Below, piece by piece: positions 16,613-31,461 of a stretch of 35,154 nucleotides of DNA. Each line of letters opens with the position of its first letter. The first letter of the stretch is position 1. The notes beneath the pieces were generated by a model. The model was given only the letters and a program-made list of their open reading frames with translations, was not told the DNA's origin and ran no database searches. The stretch is from the IMG/VR virus record IMGVR_UViG_3300021961_000012, positions 1 to 35,154 of that record. The stretch is one strand, 5' to 3'. This DNA is from a virus. The position numbers and the translations under genes were made by a program.

Positions 16613-18586
16613 TTAATCACCAAGACCTGCTGTTGTTAGAATATTACGGTCAAGTTCTTGTTGTGATGTTATTTCTTTCCCTACTACAAAGGCTTTTATT
16701 GGTTTTGCTTGTTGTCCGGCTACGGTTTGTGCTAATTGACTCTCTGGGGATGCTCCAACAACGTTAAAGTCAGGTGCTTCTACTTGAGGTCTGCCTGCTG
16801 TTGTAGATGGTTTGCTTTTCCCTTCGCTAATAATAGCCTTAACATTTGCAAGACCACTCGCTATAGCTGCTGCTGCTGCAATAGCACCTCTAACCGGAGA
16901 ATCCACTAATGCTAATGGCATAAATTGAGATTCATATGCTTTTTGTGCTGACAAGTATGTTGAAATTAAAGCAGAACTAACAGCGAGTGCTTTACCAGCT
17001 TTAGTTTCTTTACCCACTAACTCTCCAAATGCAGATAGAGCATTTGCAGTAACCTCGAATGTTTGAACTTTGGCTTGTTGTTCTGCTAATGCAATTTTAG
17101 TTCTAATGTCAGATTCTTTTTTCTCCATAGCTGTAATTTCAGCTTGGAGCTTGGCCTTTTCTAAAGCGGTTAGTCTATCGTTATTTAGTTCTGCTTTTTT
17201 ATATTCAATATTCTTAAGTAATAAATCTTGCTCTAAATCTAATCTTTTTTTAGCCCTAATACCAGCATTTCTCTCATCCATTAAACGAGCATCCAACCCA
17301 ATTCTTGCTAATTCTTGGAATCTCAATCTTTCCATCTCATTAGCTTTATTCATCTCATCAATAGCGTTTTGAGATTGTAATGCTGCGGTTTTGTTTCTTA
17401 TTGCAAATAAAGCTCTATCAAGTTCTTCTGCTGCTTGTATCTCAGAGTCATAATACATCTGTTGAGTAATACGACCTTCAGAAAGTCTTTGCTTTTGACG
17501 TTCAATAAAGCTATTAAATTCTATTCTAAGTTTTTCTTTTTCTGCTTCACCAACTAAAGCAATTTCATCTTGTTTATCGTCTATTAATGATTGAATAAGA
17601 GCTTTTCGAGCCGCCTGAATTTCTTCAGTAAATCTTAAAAATTCTCTTTTATATCTTTTAGTTGTTGAAGTGCCTTTTTCTTGCTCTAAAGTAAATAGTT
17701 TTTGTAATTCAATAAGTTCTCTAATTAACTCCTTGAATCGACCTCTTAACTGAATTGACCTTTCAGTTTCACCGCCATCTTCCTCTAAACGCTTTTTATA
17801 CTTCTCACTAACTTCAATAATCTCTTTTTCAACATCCAATAGTCTACCAAAGGATTTCACTAAATTACCTATAGATTCATCATTCTTGTCAAGACCTTGT
17901 TTTCTGAGTTTTTCCATTCCGGTATTAAACTTAGAAAATCTATTTTCTAATATAGAAGCGGTATCAGATAATGCTTGACCACTCAAATTATAGTCAAAGA
18001 AAGATGATGATAACATATCAAATAATGATATTTGCTCATCTAATGATTTTGTTAAATCGTCTAGTTTCTTTTTGAATTCTTCGGCTGCTTTAGCACCACC
18101 TCTAAAAAAGTCTACTATCTTTGGGCCAAATGCAATCAAAAGCTGTACAGCAATTAACAGCCCTCCAGTCCCCATAATAGATTTACCTAGTTGCCCAAGG
18201 GCGGCTCTAACACTACCAGCAGTTTTACTAAAACTAAAAAATAAACTTATTACTTGCGATAAGTTGTTCGCAATAGCAGTAAACCCATAACTAGCGTCAG
18301 AAGCTAATCGAGATGTTTCTAAAAGTATAGCATTATTAAGACCTGCTTGAGCGCGAAAAGGTTTACCATTGTTAGCAGCAGCTAATTCGGCAGCAGCTTG
18401 CTCTCTAAATGATGCAGCTAAATCTGCATTAGTTATCTTGAGCTTATCAGCTTCAATCCTATTTCTTTTTTCCTCCTCAGTTAGTTTAGATAAATCCTTA
18501 ACAGCTTTACTAGCAGCATCACCAACAGCCTTTGATCCAGTCTCTCTGACCGATACCTCTATTAATATCTTCTTATTTGCTGCCAT
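16613..18586 (-). CDS. Tail tape measure protein
   Basis: This 657-residue, mostly helical protein begins MAANKKILIEVSVRETGSKA. It has hydrophobic membrane-like stretches around residues 100-165 (ANNLSQVISLFFSFSKTAGS, and GTGGLLIAVQLLIAFGPKIV) followed by long charged coiled coils (ELDRALFAIRNKTAALQSQN, and so on). This is the standard layout of a tape measure, which sets tail length and enters the host envelope. At roughly 1.5 angstrom per residue it implies a tail near 100 nm. It lies between the tail-tip genes and the prohead protease, not after the tail tube. Confidence 0.8.
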   Translation of the reverse strand: MAANKKILIEVSVRETGSKAVGDAASKAVKDLSKLTEEEKRNRIEADKLKITNADLAASFREQAAAELAAANNGKPFRAQAGLNNAILLETSRLASDASYGFTAIANNLSQVISLFFSFSKTAGSVRAALGQLGKSIMGTGGLLIAVQLLIAFGPKIVDFFRGGAKAAEEFKKKLDDLTKSLDEQISLFDMLSSSFFDYNLSGQALSDTASILENRFSKFNTGMEKLRKQGLDKNDESIGNLVKSFGRLLDVEKEIIEVSEKYKKRLEEDGGETERSIQLRGRFKELIRELIELQKLFTLEQEKGTSTTKRYKREFLRFTEEIQAARKALIQSLIDDKQDEIALVGEAEKEKLRIEFNSFIERQKQRLSEGRITQQMYYDSEIQAAEELDRALFAIRNKTAALQSQNAIDEMNKANEMERLRFQELARIGLDARLMDERNAGIRAKKRLDLEQDLLLKNIEYKKAELNNDRLTALEKAKLQAEITAMEKKESDIRTKIALAEQQAKVQTFEVTANALSAFGELVGKETKAGKALAVSSALISTYLSAQKAYESQFMPLALVDSPVRGAIAAAAAIASGLANVKAIISEGKSKPSTTAGRPQVEAPDFNVVGASPESQLAQTVAGQQAKPIKAFVVGKEITSQQELDRNILTTAGLGD

Positions 18587-24175: not shown

Positions 24176-24731
24176 TTTCTATAGTATAATTATCACCTTT
24201 CTTAATATAACCTGCTTTAAGCAGAATGTCTTCTATATTTAACATTATATCTTGTACCATTGGGTCTGATATAGCATCTAGTTTAGATAAAGCTTCTTGT
24301 ATAGCATCATCTATAAAATTAGTTGGAGCTATACCTCTAAGATTTATTGACCTTGATATAGCGAATGCAATTCCTCTTATCTTACTTTGAGTCAGAGAAC
24401 CTCCTCTTAAATTGTATAACTTTACTGGTTTGTTCTGAATCCAGCTAACAATACTTTCTATTGGAGGAAAACCACTGTTAGTTCCTTCATCTACTGCTTT
24501 TCCATATTTCAACCCCTCCAAATTCAAAGTAAATCCATCATTTGTATCTTTCAAGTAAGATGATAGTGAATTGGCTAATGTTCCGGTGTAATTTATTGGA
24601 GAGTTAAAACTTCTTCCTGTTTTAGATTGTCTTGCCCTAGATCGAGTAATTTCAGCCTTTACAATCTTTTTTAATTGCTCAGAGAAACTTTTCTCAAGAT
24701 ATAACTTTGTATTTTTAAATTTAGTTACCAT
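24162..24731 (-). CDS. HK97 gp10-like tail completion protein
   Basis: This 189-residue protein starts at ATG 24731, which overlaps the upstream stop as TAATG. It begins MVTKFKNTKLYLEKSF and has SFNSPINYTGTLANSLSSYL, then LKYGKAVDEGTNSGFPPIES and LRGIAPTNFIDDAIQEALSK. The combination of a leading helix, a short beta sheet and a late helix fits the gp10/tail-completion family that joins tail to neck. An in-frame start 14 codons earlier would read polythreonine codons in another frame and is unlikely. Confidence 0.65.
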   Translation of the reverse strand: MVTKFKNTKLYLEKSFSEQLKKIVKAEITRSRARQSKTGRSFNSPINYTGTLANSLSSYLKDTNDGFTLNLEGLKYGKAVDEGTNSGFPPIESIVSWIQNKPVKLYNLRGGSLTQSKIRGIAFAISRSINLRGIAPTNFIDDAIQEALSKLDAISDPMVQDIMLNIEDILLKAGYIKKGDNYTIENGTN

Positions 24732-25255
24732 TATGGAGCAACAGTTGTTGTTGTTGTAGTAGTTGTCATACAAGAAGTACCATCAGCGTTGATTAACGCC
24801 ATCTCATCGTTTGGAATGTCGATGTTAAGAACAAGAGACCATCCGGCAAGTAAGTTCTCAAATCTATCTTCAAATTGTGTGGCAGTTGGAGAATCCACTA
24901 TCTCGTAGTTGTTCTCATTCATACCTCCACGTCTAAGGGAGCTTTGCAACCCATTTACAACACTCAACATACTATTTAGAATATCCTGCTTGTTGTCTCC
25001 TTGATAAAGTGGGTTATGGGTTGTTTGTTTATCCTCTTTATACTCATCTACCACATCCATAGCAATAATATTCACACTAAAGGTCATATAGTGGTCGTTA
25101 AACGTTACATCACTCACGATAATATGGGCAAGTGGGAAAATAGTTTGTTTAGATAGGTCTACGTCAAATATATCTCCTGAGGTAACGGTATTTATATTAT
25201 TATTACCGTTGAGGTAGTTGTAGATGTTGTCAATGAGGTTATAATATTCTTTCAT
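24731..25255 (-). CDS. Tail terminator/completion protein with polythreonine tail
   Basis: This 174-residue protein begins MKEYYNLIDNIYNYLNGNNN and has SKQTIFPLAHIIVSDVTFND, then DRFENLLAGWSLVLNIDIPN, a pattern of tail terminator proteins. The last residues are CMTTTTTTTTVAP, with eight Thr in a row encoded by an ACN microsatellite at about 24735-24770. This run cannot be part of a folded domain. It resembles the linkers of the Thr-rich protein in the same operon, which suggests these tails are modified or exposed. It lies directly below the tail chaperone. Confidence 0.65.
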   Translation of the reverse strand: MKEYYNLIDNIYNYLNGNNNINTVTSGDIFDVDLSKQTIFPLAHIIVSDVTFNDHYMTFSVNIIAMDVVDEYKEDKQTTHNPLYQGDNKQDILNSMLSVVNGLQSSLRRGGMNENNYEIVDSPTATQFEDRFENLLAGWSLVLNIDIPNDEMALINADGTSCMTTTTTTTTVAP

Positions 25256-26018
25256 CGCTTCATAGCTTTTTTAATCATATTCGATTCTAATTCGTTTTTC
25301 TCTTTCTCAAAGGTTAAATACATCAAACACTTAAATAACGGTTCTGATGTAACTTTGTCAAATTTTGTGATGTCTCCCTTAGCGAGTCCATAAATTGAGC
25401 TATACCAACCCCATTTCTTTCCAAAGTTTGATGTAGAGGAGAGGTTTGCGGTATTTTCCTCAATTCCTTCTCCAAATAAACTAGGGAAGCTCTCGATAAC
25501 TCGATCCCTAAATTGTAAAAAAAAACCATAGCCCCCATCACAACACTAAGTGGCATCTCCTTCATCCACATCCGTATCTCATCATTTGGCTTATACGGAG
25601 CGATAGTATATTTATCTTTACTCTTAAAGTTTACCGGTCTATACAACACCGCCATTGCCTTATGGATGTCTTGCCAATCTGATATTGTAGCCTCAACGTC
25701 CACATACTCACCAAGACTCATCTCTTCTAAGTTTGGTATAAATCCCATTTCAACACCTCCAAGAGTAAAGTGGCGAGTAAGATTATACTTTTTGGAGAAT
25801 GCCTCCTCAATAATCTTGAGTACCTTGTTGAACTCAACAACAGGTATCTTCTCCACATCATTCAGATTCACATTACAGAATATCTCAATGAGCTTCTTGT
25901 TGGTGAAATCCGTATACTCATCACCTTCGTTTTGATCTACGATTTTTATATATCGTTGATATTGCCCTAAGGTAATTGACTCTAAAGATGTTGGTACTTC
26001 TAATTCTATCTTAGCCAT
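25252..26018 (-). CDS. Tail assembly chaperone, -1 frameshift fusion product (predicted)
   Basis: A -1 shift at the U-run (G GUU UUU UUU UAC, coordinates 25517-25525) would join the zero-frame first 167 residues to a second frame of 88 codons that ends at 25252. That frame encodes SNFGKKWGWYSSIYGLAKGD, then KFDKVTSEPLFKCLMYLTFE and KNELESNMIKKAMKR, a coherent folded-looking domain with no start codon near its beginning. The fusion would be 255 residues. This matches the G/GT arrangement of phage lambda. An assembly error in the 9-T run is the alternative. Confidence 0.65.
25323..26018 (-). CDS. Tail assembly chaperone, zero-frame product
   Basis: This 231-residue protein begins MAKIELEVPTSLESITLGQY and has KKLIEIFCNVNLNDVEKIPV, GGVEMGFIPNLEEMSLGEYV and DWQDIHKAMAVLYRPVNFKS. 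The order of blocks matches tail-assembly chaperones of Bacteroidetes phages. After a T-rich run at 25517-25525 the zero frame ends with LERNGVGIAQFMDSLRETSQ. Such chaperones in lambdoid phages have a second, frameshifted form; here an open -1 frame continues downstream (see the next entry). Confidence 0.75.
   Translation of the reverse strand: MAKIELEVPTSLESITLGQYQRYIKIVDQNEGDEYTDFTNKKLIEIFCNVNLNDVEKIPVVEFNKVLKIIEEAFSKKYNLTRHFTLGGVEMGFIPNLEEMSLGEYVDVEATISDWQDIHKAMAVLYRPVNFKSKDKYTIAPYKPNDEIRMWMKEMPLSVVMGAMVFFYNLGIELSRASLVYLEKELRKIPQTSPLHQTLERNGVGIAQFMDSLRETSQNLTKLHQNRYLSV
25517..25526 (-). other. Slippery heptamer for -1 frameshift
   Basis: On the minus strand G GTT TTT TTT TAC contains nine Ts, giving a U UUU UUU heptamer in frame. 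Both the A- and P-site tRNAs can re-pair in the -1 frame, as in the classic XXXYYYZ model. The -1 frame stays open from here to 25252. Confidence 0.65.
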
Positions 26019-26085
26019 ATTGTAAGTAATTTACGAAATTGTTTTTGTACTCCAAAAAATAATTACCAGTATTATACTAGTATAG

Positions 26086-26193
26086 TACTAAGTATAATAT
26101 ACTAAGTATTGTACTTACTATACTAAGTAAGATACTTACTACACTTAGTAAGATATTATAAATATATATATATATATTATATTATACTAAGTA
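26086..26193. repeat. TACTAAGTA repeat cluster 2
   Basis: TACTAAGTA occurs at 26086-26094, 26100-26108, 26121-26129 and 26185-26193, with TACTTACTA variants at 26112-26120 and 26133-26141, and a TATATATA tract between. It lies in the gap upstream of the tail chaperone gene (ATG 26018) and shares its motif with the cluster at 2690-2793. Copies in either orientation nearly self-pair. Confidence 0.8.
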
Positions 26194-26204
26194 CTATAGT
26201 CCTG

Positions 26205-28072: not shown

Positions 28073-28104
28073 CAAATATAGCAACAATTTTTTTTTGTTT
28101 TCAA
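28073..28104 (-). promoter_or_regulatory. Promoter of the Gp88 cassette
   Basis: The -7 box TATATTTG (28080-28073) is exact. TTGAA (28104-28100) lies where the -33 TTTG is expected, at 19-20 bases. Transcription should begin near 28067, about 45 bases before the first ATG. Confidence 0.65.
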
Positions 28105-31402: not shown

Positions 31403-31461
31403 AATAATATAAATTTAATAATTCCTACTCTATTGGCTTTTCGGATACCGCCTTATAGGGA

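Follow-up and report, generated by a model that had tools for sequence, protein, structure and literature searches.

Two coding frames behind a conserved run of nine Ts in a Bacteroidota phage gene family, with RNA polymerase slippage as the probable cause of the frame switch

In phage tail-chaperone genes, -1 ribosomal frameshifting is the usual mechanism of frame switching (PMC5009743; PMC10885494). In bacteria, the RNA polymerase can play this part. At Shigella mxiE/spa13, it adds bases at a homopolymer of T or A within the coding region and thereby opens an extension frame (PMC5009743); PMC3711429 cites the mxiE T-run as Tn, n > 8. A single gene of Thermus thermophilus, dnaX, yields two products through transcriptional slippage on A9 (PMC5009743; PMC1088944). 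Runs of 9 As or Ts are efficient slippage sites for bacterial RNA polymerase (PMC5009743; PMC1088944), and the insertion errors made on A/T runs are mostly of single bases and rise steeply with run length (PMC5574713).

The gene described here lies in a virus record of 35,154 bases, analyzed over its full length and called the window below. Our most far-reaching interpretation, to which we give a probability of about 0.58, is that a phage structural gene family uses polymerase slippage at a length-conserved run of nine Ts (T9), in place of ribosomal frameshifting, to make two C-terminal isoforms, that about 200 bases are selected in both frames, and that one tail was overprinted after a single-ORF ancestor had gained the slip site. 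In the open-access literature, no phage morphogenesis gene was reported under a length-conserved transcriptional slip site, and the frame switch of the present gene family was likewise unreported; subscription papers were outside the scope of this search.

The locus resembles lambda G/GT in that two proteins would have a common N part, the longer one arising by a -1 shift, and in its position within a phage structural block. However, there is no detectable homology with the lambda genes, and the gene is not beside the tape-measure-like gene. Moreover, the T9 is conserved in length and no structure is conserved with it, and the zero frame runs 54-88 codons past the slip in most lineages, where it is itself selected. 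The likeness to lambda G/GT proposed in the sequence-only reading covers the common N part and the -1 direction, but it does not extend to the two tails, which are both long, overlap each other and are both under purifying selection. As in mxiE/spa13, the polymerase would add bases at a coding homopolymer and open an extension frame; unlike these single bacterial genes, the phage family keeps its T9 over large divergence, and both of its downstream frames are coding. The run of nine leading to two products recalls dnaX, but slippage there leads to an early stop, whereas in the phage gene it would lead to a second conserved domain, and the unslipped frame of the phage gene also encodes a tail.

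Layout of the gene and its relatives

The features of the window used below are the following.

25323..26018, minus strand: zero-frame ORF of 231 aa, present in all relatives, with an N domain (1-165), the slip-site FF (166-167) and an alternative C-terminal tail (168-231)
25517..25525, minus strand: T9 run, the putative slip site (GTT TTT TTT TAC)
25518..25524, minus strand: in-frame heptamer T_TTT_TTT within the T9 run, alone enough for ribosomal -1 slippage
25252..25524, minus strand: -1 frame segment FFLQFRDR...KKWGWYSSIYGLAKGDITKFD..., 90 codons when counted from the first slip-site F
25323..25524, minus strand: dual-coding overlap of the zero and -1 frames (dN/dS and openness test)
25508..25510, minus strand: TAG closing the +1 frame, two codons past the run
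24731..25255, minus strand: next gene, PHROG 30964 family, with its start within an ATGA overlap
16613..18586, minus strand: tape-measure-like protein, 657 aa, with coiled coil and hydrophobic segments, assigned by eye only

At the site, the minus strand reads ATG GTT TTT TTT TAC AAT TTA GGG. The open stretch of the -1 frame begins 21 bases upstream of the heptamer and ends with the TGA at 25254-25252, which overlaps the start codon of the next gene (ATG at 25255) as ATGA. The sequence-only reading had described the T9 run with its in-frame slippery heptamer, an 88-codon -1 frame to a stop at 25252, a 255-residue fusion (167 + 88 aa), the ATGA overlap, the lack of a plausible start codon in the -1 domain and a zero frame continuing as reasonable protein to 25323. 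All of this was borne out: the Ts are at 25525-25517, the -1 domain is conserved in relatives and the zero-frame tail is under purifying selection (see below).

The first ATG, GTG or TTG in the -1 frame is at residue 66, past most of the domain; initiation within the -1 frame therefore cannot produce this domain. Synthesis of the -1 segment as a separate protein, by internal or coupled initiation, would fit the annotation of P12024L, where the zero frame ends TAATG on the annotated gp41 start. It is nevertheless very improbable in view of the late start codon in the window, where the zero-frame stop moreover lies 199 bases into the 270-base -1 segment, and of the conservation of the FFLxFR residues right at the run.

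Each segment was used to search IMG/VR, which yielded 159 loci, and further rounds, run with divergent members and with a DNA pattern, raised the parsed set to 387 loci. These are partly non-independent, as certain contigs were retrieved twice; at 85% identity they cluster into 134 rows. Protein identity to the window goes down to about 30-40% among the relatives. Both frames, the second always being -1, were found in every relative whose contig spans the site, except for two contigs (L265 and L271) treated below. Two phage isolates, Nonlabens phages P12024L and P12024S, have T9 as well; their annotation treats the two pieces as distinct hypothetical genes. T9 also occurs in two genomes of cultured Flavobacteriia, Flagellimonas onchidii XY-359 and Galbibacter pacificus CAA-3. 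When 400 genomes from a single bacterial family were scanned, 3 matches were obtained, the most informative being L316. The DNA-level search against phage isolates gave no match, and an alignment of distant -1 domains (A3) contained no stretch conserved enough for scanning. A match in a Micrococcales MAG (L171, 23% identity) was set aside, as it has neither the run nor the -1 domain.

Since the two frames recur with the -1 offset across these relatives, their presence is not due to chance. The observation of two frames is confirmed, and is much stronger than from the window alone. Comparison of the relatives supports a programmed switch into the -1 frame.

Coding in both frames

The zero-frame tail, which is longest within the main clade, extends just 16-25 codons past FF in the P12024L clade. 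Using a simplified overlapping-gene method on 107 pairs, we obtained dN/dS values of 0.49 for the zero frame (bootstrap 0.42-0.55) and 0.30 for the -1 frame, against 1.18 for the unused third frame, indicating that both tails are under purifying selection. Control phases with a single coding frame gave 0.85 and 1.17. Openness of the zero frame was also assayed by shuffling synonymous codons of the -1 frame, which closed the zero frame early in nearly all cases. The median chance of the zero frame reaching its observed stop was 0.007 (48 representatives); the combined probability is not a P value, the lineages being related. Together, these data indicate that about 200 bases are dual-coding.

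The third frame ends after 0-7 codons in all 59 lineages obtained by clustering at 60% identity, mostly by a TAG or TAA formed from TTA G/A. At the position of the window's third-frame stop (25508..25510), TAG or TAA was found in 360 of 376 loci. Transcripts losing one U or gaining two would enter this frame and stop within a few codons.

Homopolymers are error-prone, and one continuous gene could be split by a sequencing or assembly error. Such a split does occur in a related gene of Flavobacterium phage 6H, compared with phage 2A: a small indel divides the homologous 293-aa gene (L441 10352-10927 in phage 6H, against L442 604-1485), which we attribute to a sequencing error or a broken copy. 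The T9 locus, however, looks alike in isolate phages, in bacterial genomes and in hundreds of contigs drawn from many samples. The T count is nine in the two sequenced phage isolates and the two bacterial genomes, in agreement with the window, which excludes an assembly artefact. This explanation, to which we leave next to no weight, is refuted by the isolates together with the purifying selection on both frames.

Length and register of the run, and the mechanism of the switch

All 387 parsed loci carry a coding-strand T run of about nine or more, as in known cases of transcriptional slippage: 9 Ts in 355, 10 in 32 and fewer than 9 in none. In a sample chosen by a DNA pattern inside the -1 domain, and thus blind to the run, 78 of 78 loci with the site on the contig had T9 or T10 (L371 and L396 are cut off). 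Other coding-strand runs of this kind are rare, with only five T9 and one T10 in 256 kb of representative loci. In related loci, Phe is encoded by TTT in only 76% of cases, and FF outside the site is written TTTTTT in 45 of 118 cases, compared with 59 of 59 lineages at the site. A second T9 run of the window, at 28088-28096 on the plus strand, lies in a gap without a long ORF.

Over 5.5 kb, contigs L265 and L271 share 99.7% identity, and the one indel between them falls in the run near base 2973 (T11 in L265, T12 in L271); this difference may reflect true variation or a homopolymer error. In the T11 copy, both frames are joined, so that reading continues directly into the -1 domain. Such a pair would be expected from phase variation, in which the run mutates in the DNA and each genome makes one product or the other. 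Phase variation should, however, produce wide variation in run length between close relatives, and this T11/T12 pair is the only instance, the 387 loci being T9 or T10 in a register that always keeps the frames apart. We therefore regard it as a very remote explanation.

The register of the run was classified by the number of Ts before and behind the in-frame heptamer T_TTT_TTT. Over the 387 loci, the counts were 335 for (1,1), 20 for (1,2), 17 for (2,0), 12 for (2,1) and 3 for (0,2), with NTT TTT TTT TNN as the common pattern. In the (2,0) class (L167, L235-L250), the site reads TTT TTT TTT CTG/CTC; no T stands behind the heptamer, which is offset by codon 1 being TTT. Conversely, the (0,2) class (L316-L318) reads GGT TTT TTT TTG, with no T before the heptamer and TTG behind it, whereas their relative L319 reads GTT TTT TTT TGG. 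A tree of the 134 rows requires 10 or more changes of register; T10 was gained repeatedly, but the run never dropped to T8, and each of the two compensated shifts is one event. Codon 4 encodes Tyr, Trp, Ser, Cys, Leu or Phe, and outside the compensated class these codons have only their first T in common. The residue at codon 1 is hydrophobic in nearly all cases, and Leu is favored after FF in the -1 frame. Such protein-level constraints, at codon 1 and in the -1 frame, can account for part of the register pattern and of the extra Ts. As in transcriptional slippage, length is conserved rather than register or residues, although the protein constraint on the flanking Ts is not fully separable from this conservation.

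RNA polymerase slippage at the T9 is, on balance, the probable cause of the frame switch. Normal reading would give the 231-aa form with the zero-frame tail. In some transcripts the polymerase would slip at the T9 (25525-25517) and add one U, and ribosomes translating these transcripts would exit the run in the -1 frame, producing the 255-aa form, which ends in the conserved helical -1 domain. Both products would have the 165-residue N domain in common and differ in their C-terminal tails, their ratio being set at the slip site. The conserved signal would be a run of nine or more, a length close to that of the polymerase's RNA:DNA hybrid. Transcription errors on A/T runs are usually insertions of a single base, and these would lead to exactly the -1 frame.

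The main alternative is programmed -1 ribosomal frameshifting at U_UUU_UUU, in which two Phe tRNAs slip in tandem to give the fusion, as in lambda G/GT. A perfect in-frame T_TTT_TTT heptamer, of the X_XXY_YYZ type and preceding an open -1 frame, is present in every parsed locus, including all register variants, which favors the ribosome and counts against the polymerase. The -1 direction also fits, and ribosomal frameshifting is the rule in tail-chaperone genes, as cited above. However, it leaves unexplained that changes of register never bring the run below nine Ts, since the heptamer alone would tolerate T7 or T8. Nor was a conserved stimulatory RNA structure, which not every known case of ribosomal frameshifting has, found past the site: none was found around the run (mean z from -0.26 to +0.14, 59 lineages), a hairpin in the window's own sequence had a z of only -0.22, and Rfam gave no match at the slip site. 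Polymerase slippage fits better on both counts: at least nine Ts are kept despite the register shifts when a ribosome needs just 7, and no stimulatory structure is conserved. Two points limit this preference: the extra Ts are partly under protein constraint, and the compensated shifts are single events.

From the sequences, transcriptional slippage would explain the direction, the conservation of length and the freedom of register, and ribosomal slippage only the direction and the heptamer. We consider the ribosomal mechanism a possible but clearly less likely cause, and both kinds of slippage could contribute. The earlier proposal of a probable -1 ribosomal frameshift therefore stands for the programmed -1 switch, in view of the conserved, startless domain, while the word ribosomal is weakened by the run of at least nine Ts and the missing structure.

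Ancestry, neighborhood and significance of the gene

A fold match to Flavobacterium phage 6H led to PHROG 25418, whose proteins in Flavobacterium phage 2A, phage laban6-1 and Cellulophaga phage Ingeline_1 are each encoded by one continuous ORF without a frame switch. Their N part is homologous to the zero-frame N domain (hhalign 96.9%, E 1.7e-10). Beginning at the same FF, their C part can be aligned to the -1 domain, but the match is weak (E 6.5e-4, probability just 28%), and the join in these relatives is apparently at that FF. The search for fused homologs proposed in the sequence-only reading thus speaks in favor of the switch, with the C-part match being weak. As a similar protein is encoded by a single ORF in distant phages, the C-terminus was probably the -1 domain ancestrally, and the zero-frame tail would have been overprinted on this older domain.

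The N domain was predicted with pLDDT mostly above 90 and the zero-frame tail with less confidence; the model of the -1 domain is all-helical, with a pLDDT of 76. Neither sequence searches of Pfam, NCBIfam and PDB with both segments nor fold searches of PDB with both models gave a match or pointed to a function. PHROG matches were only to families of unknown function. Viral fold matches were mostly unnamed, one weak BFVD match carrying the automatic name 'tail assembly chaperone' (E 0.06).

In the window, the gene order runs from the terminase (30652-29438) through other genes to the frame-switch gene, the PHROG 30964 gene, a tail-completion-like gene and further genes, then the tape-measure-like gene (18586-16613, by eye), a protease, a virion protein and the portal. 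In P12024L the frame-switch gene directly follows the terminase, and the PHROG 30964 gene (gp42) is again the next gene after the pair. A chaperone of the lambda G/GT type would lie between the major tail protein and the tape measure, directly before the latter; six genes separate the frame-switch gene from the tape-measure-like gene, itself assigned by eye, and homology to a known chaperone family was not found. The name tail assembly chaperone, given in the sequence-only reading, is thus not upheld, for want of a Pfam, NCBIfam or PDB link and of adjacency to the tape-measure-like gene. The position of the gene in the structural block behind the terminase nevertheless makes a role in virion assembly, probably of the tail, likely.

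Several other elements were observed in the window. A GP88-family protein (PF17338; 27593-26835, minus strand) is encoded between the terminase and the frame-switch gene. Upstream of the latter, very AT-rich intergenic direct and inverted repeats around TACTAAGTA (26068-26203) are possibly regulatory. The ORFs at 25255-24731 and 24175-23111 (minus strand) contain a threonine-rich C-terminus, TTTTTTTTVAP, and the linkers TTTTTEPP and TTTTTSTTTQPSPS. Finally, Rfam gave a match to the DUF805b cis-regulatory RNA (RF02914, 47 bits) at 31422-31454 on the minus strand, just upstream of the ORF 31402-30662.

As a matter of annotation, gp40 and gp41 of P12024L, entered as two hypothetical genes, are to be read as one frame-switch gene. 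The locus also warns against taking U_UUU_UUU sites in AT-rich phages as ribosomal by default. The family offers a well-sampled natural series of overprinting, from single-ORF relatives through the short tails of the P12024L clade to the long selected ones. If polymerase slippage is confirmed, it would mean that a tract of nine Ts can be held over large protein divergence, and that, in these widely sampled Bacteroidota phages, the ratio of the products is set by the RNA polymerase.
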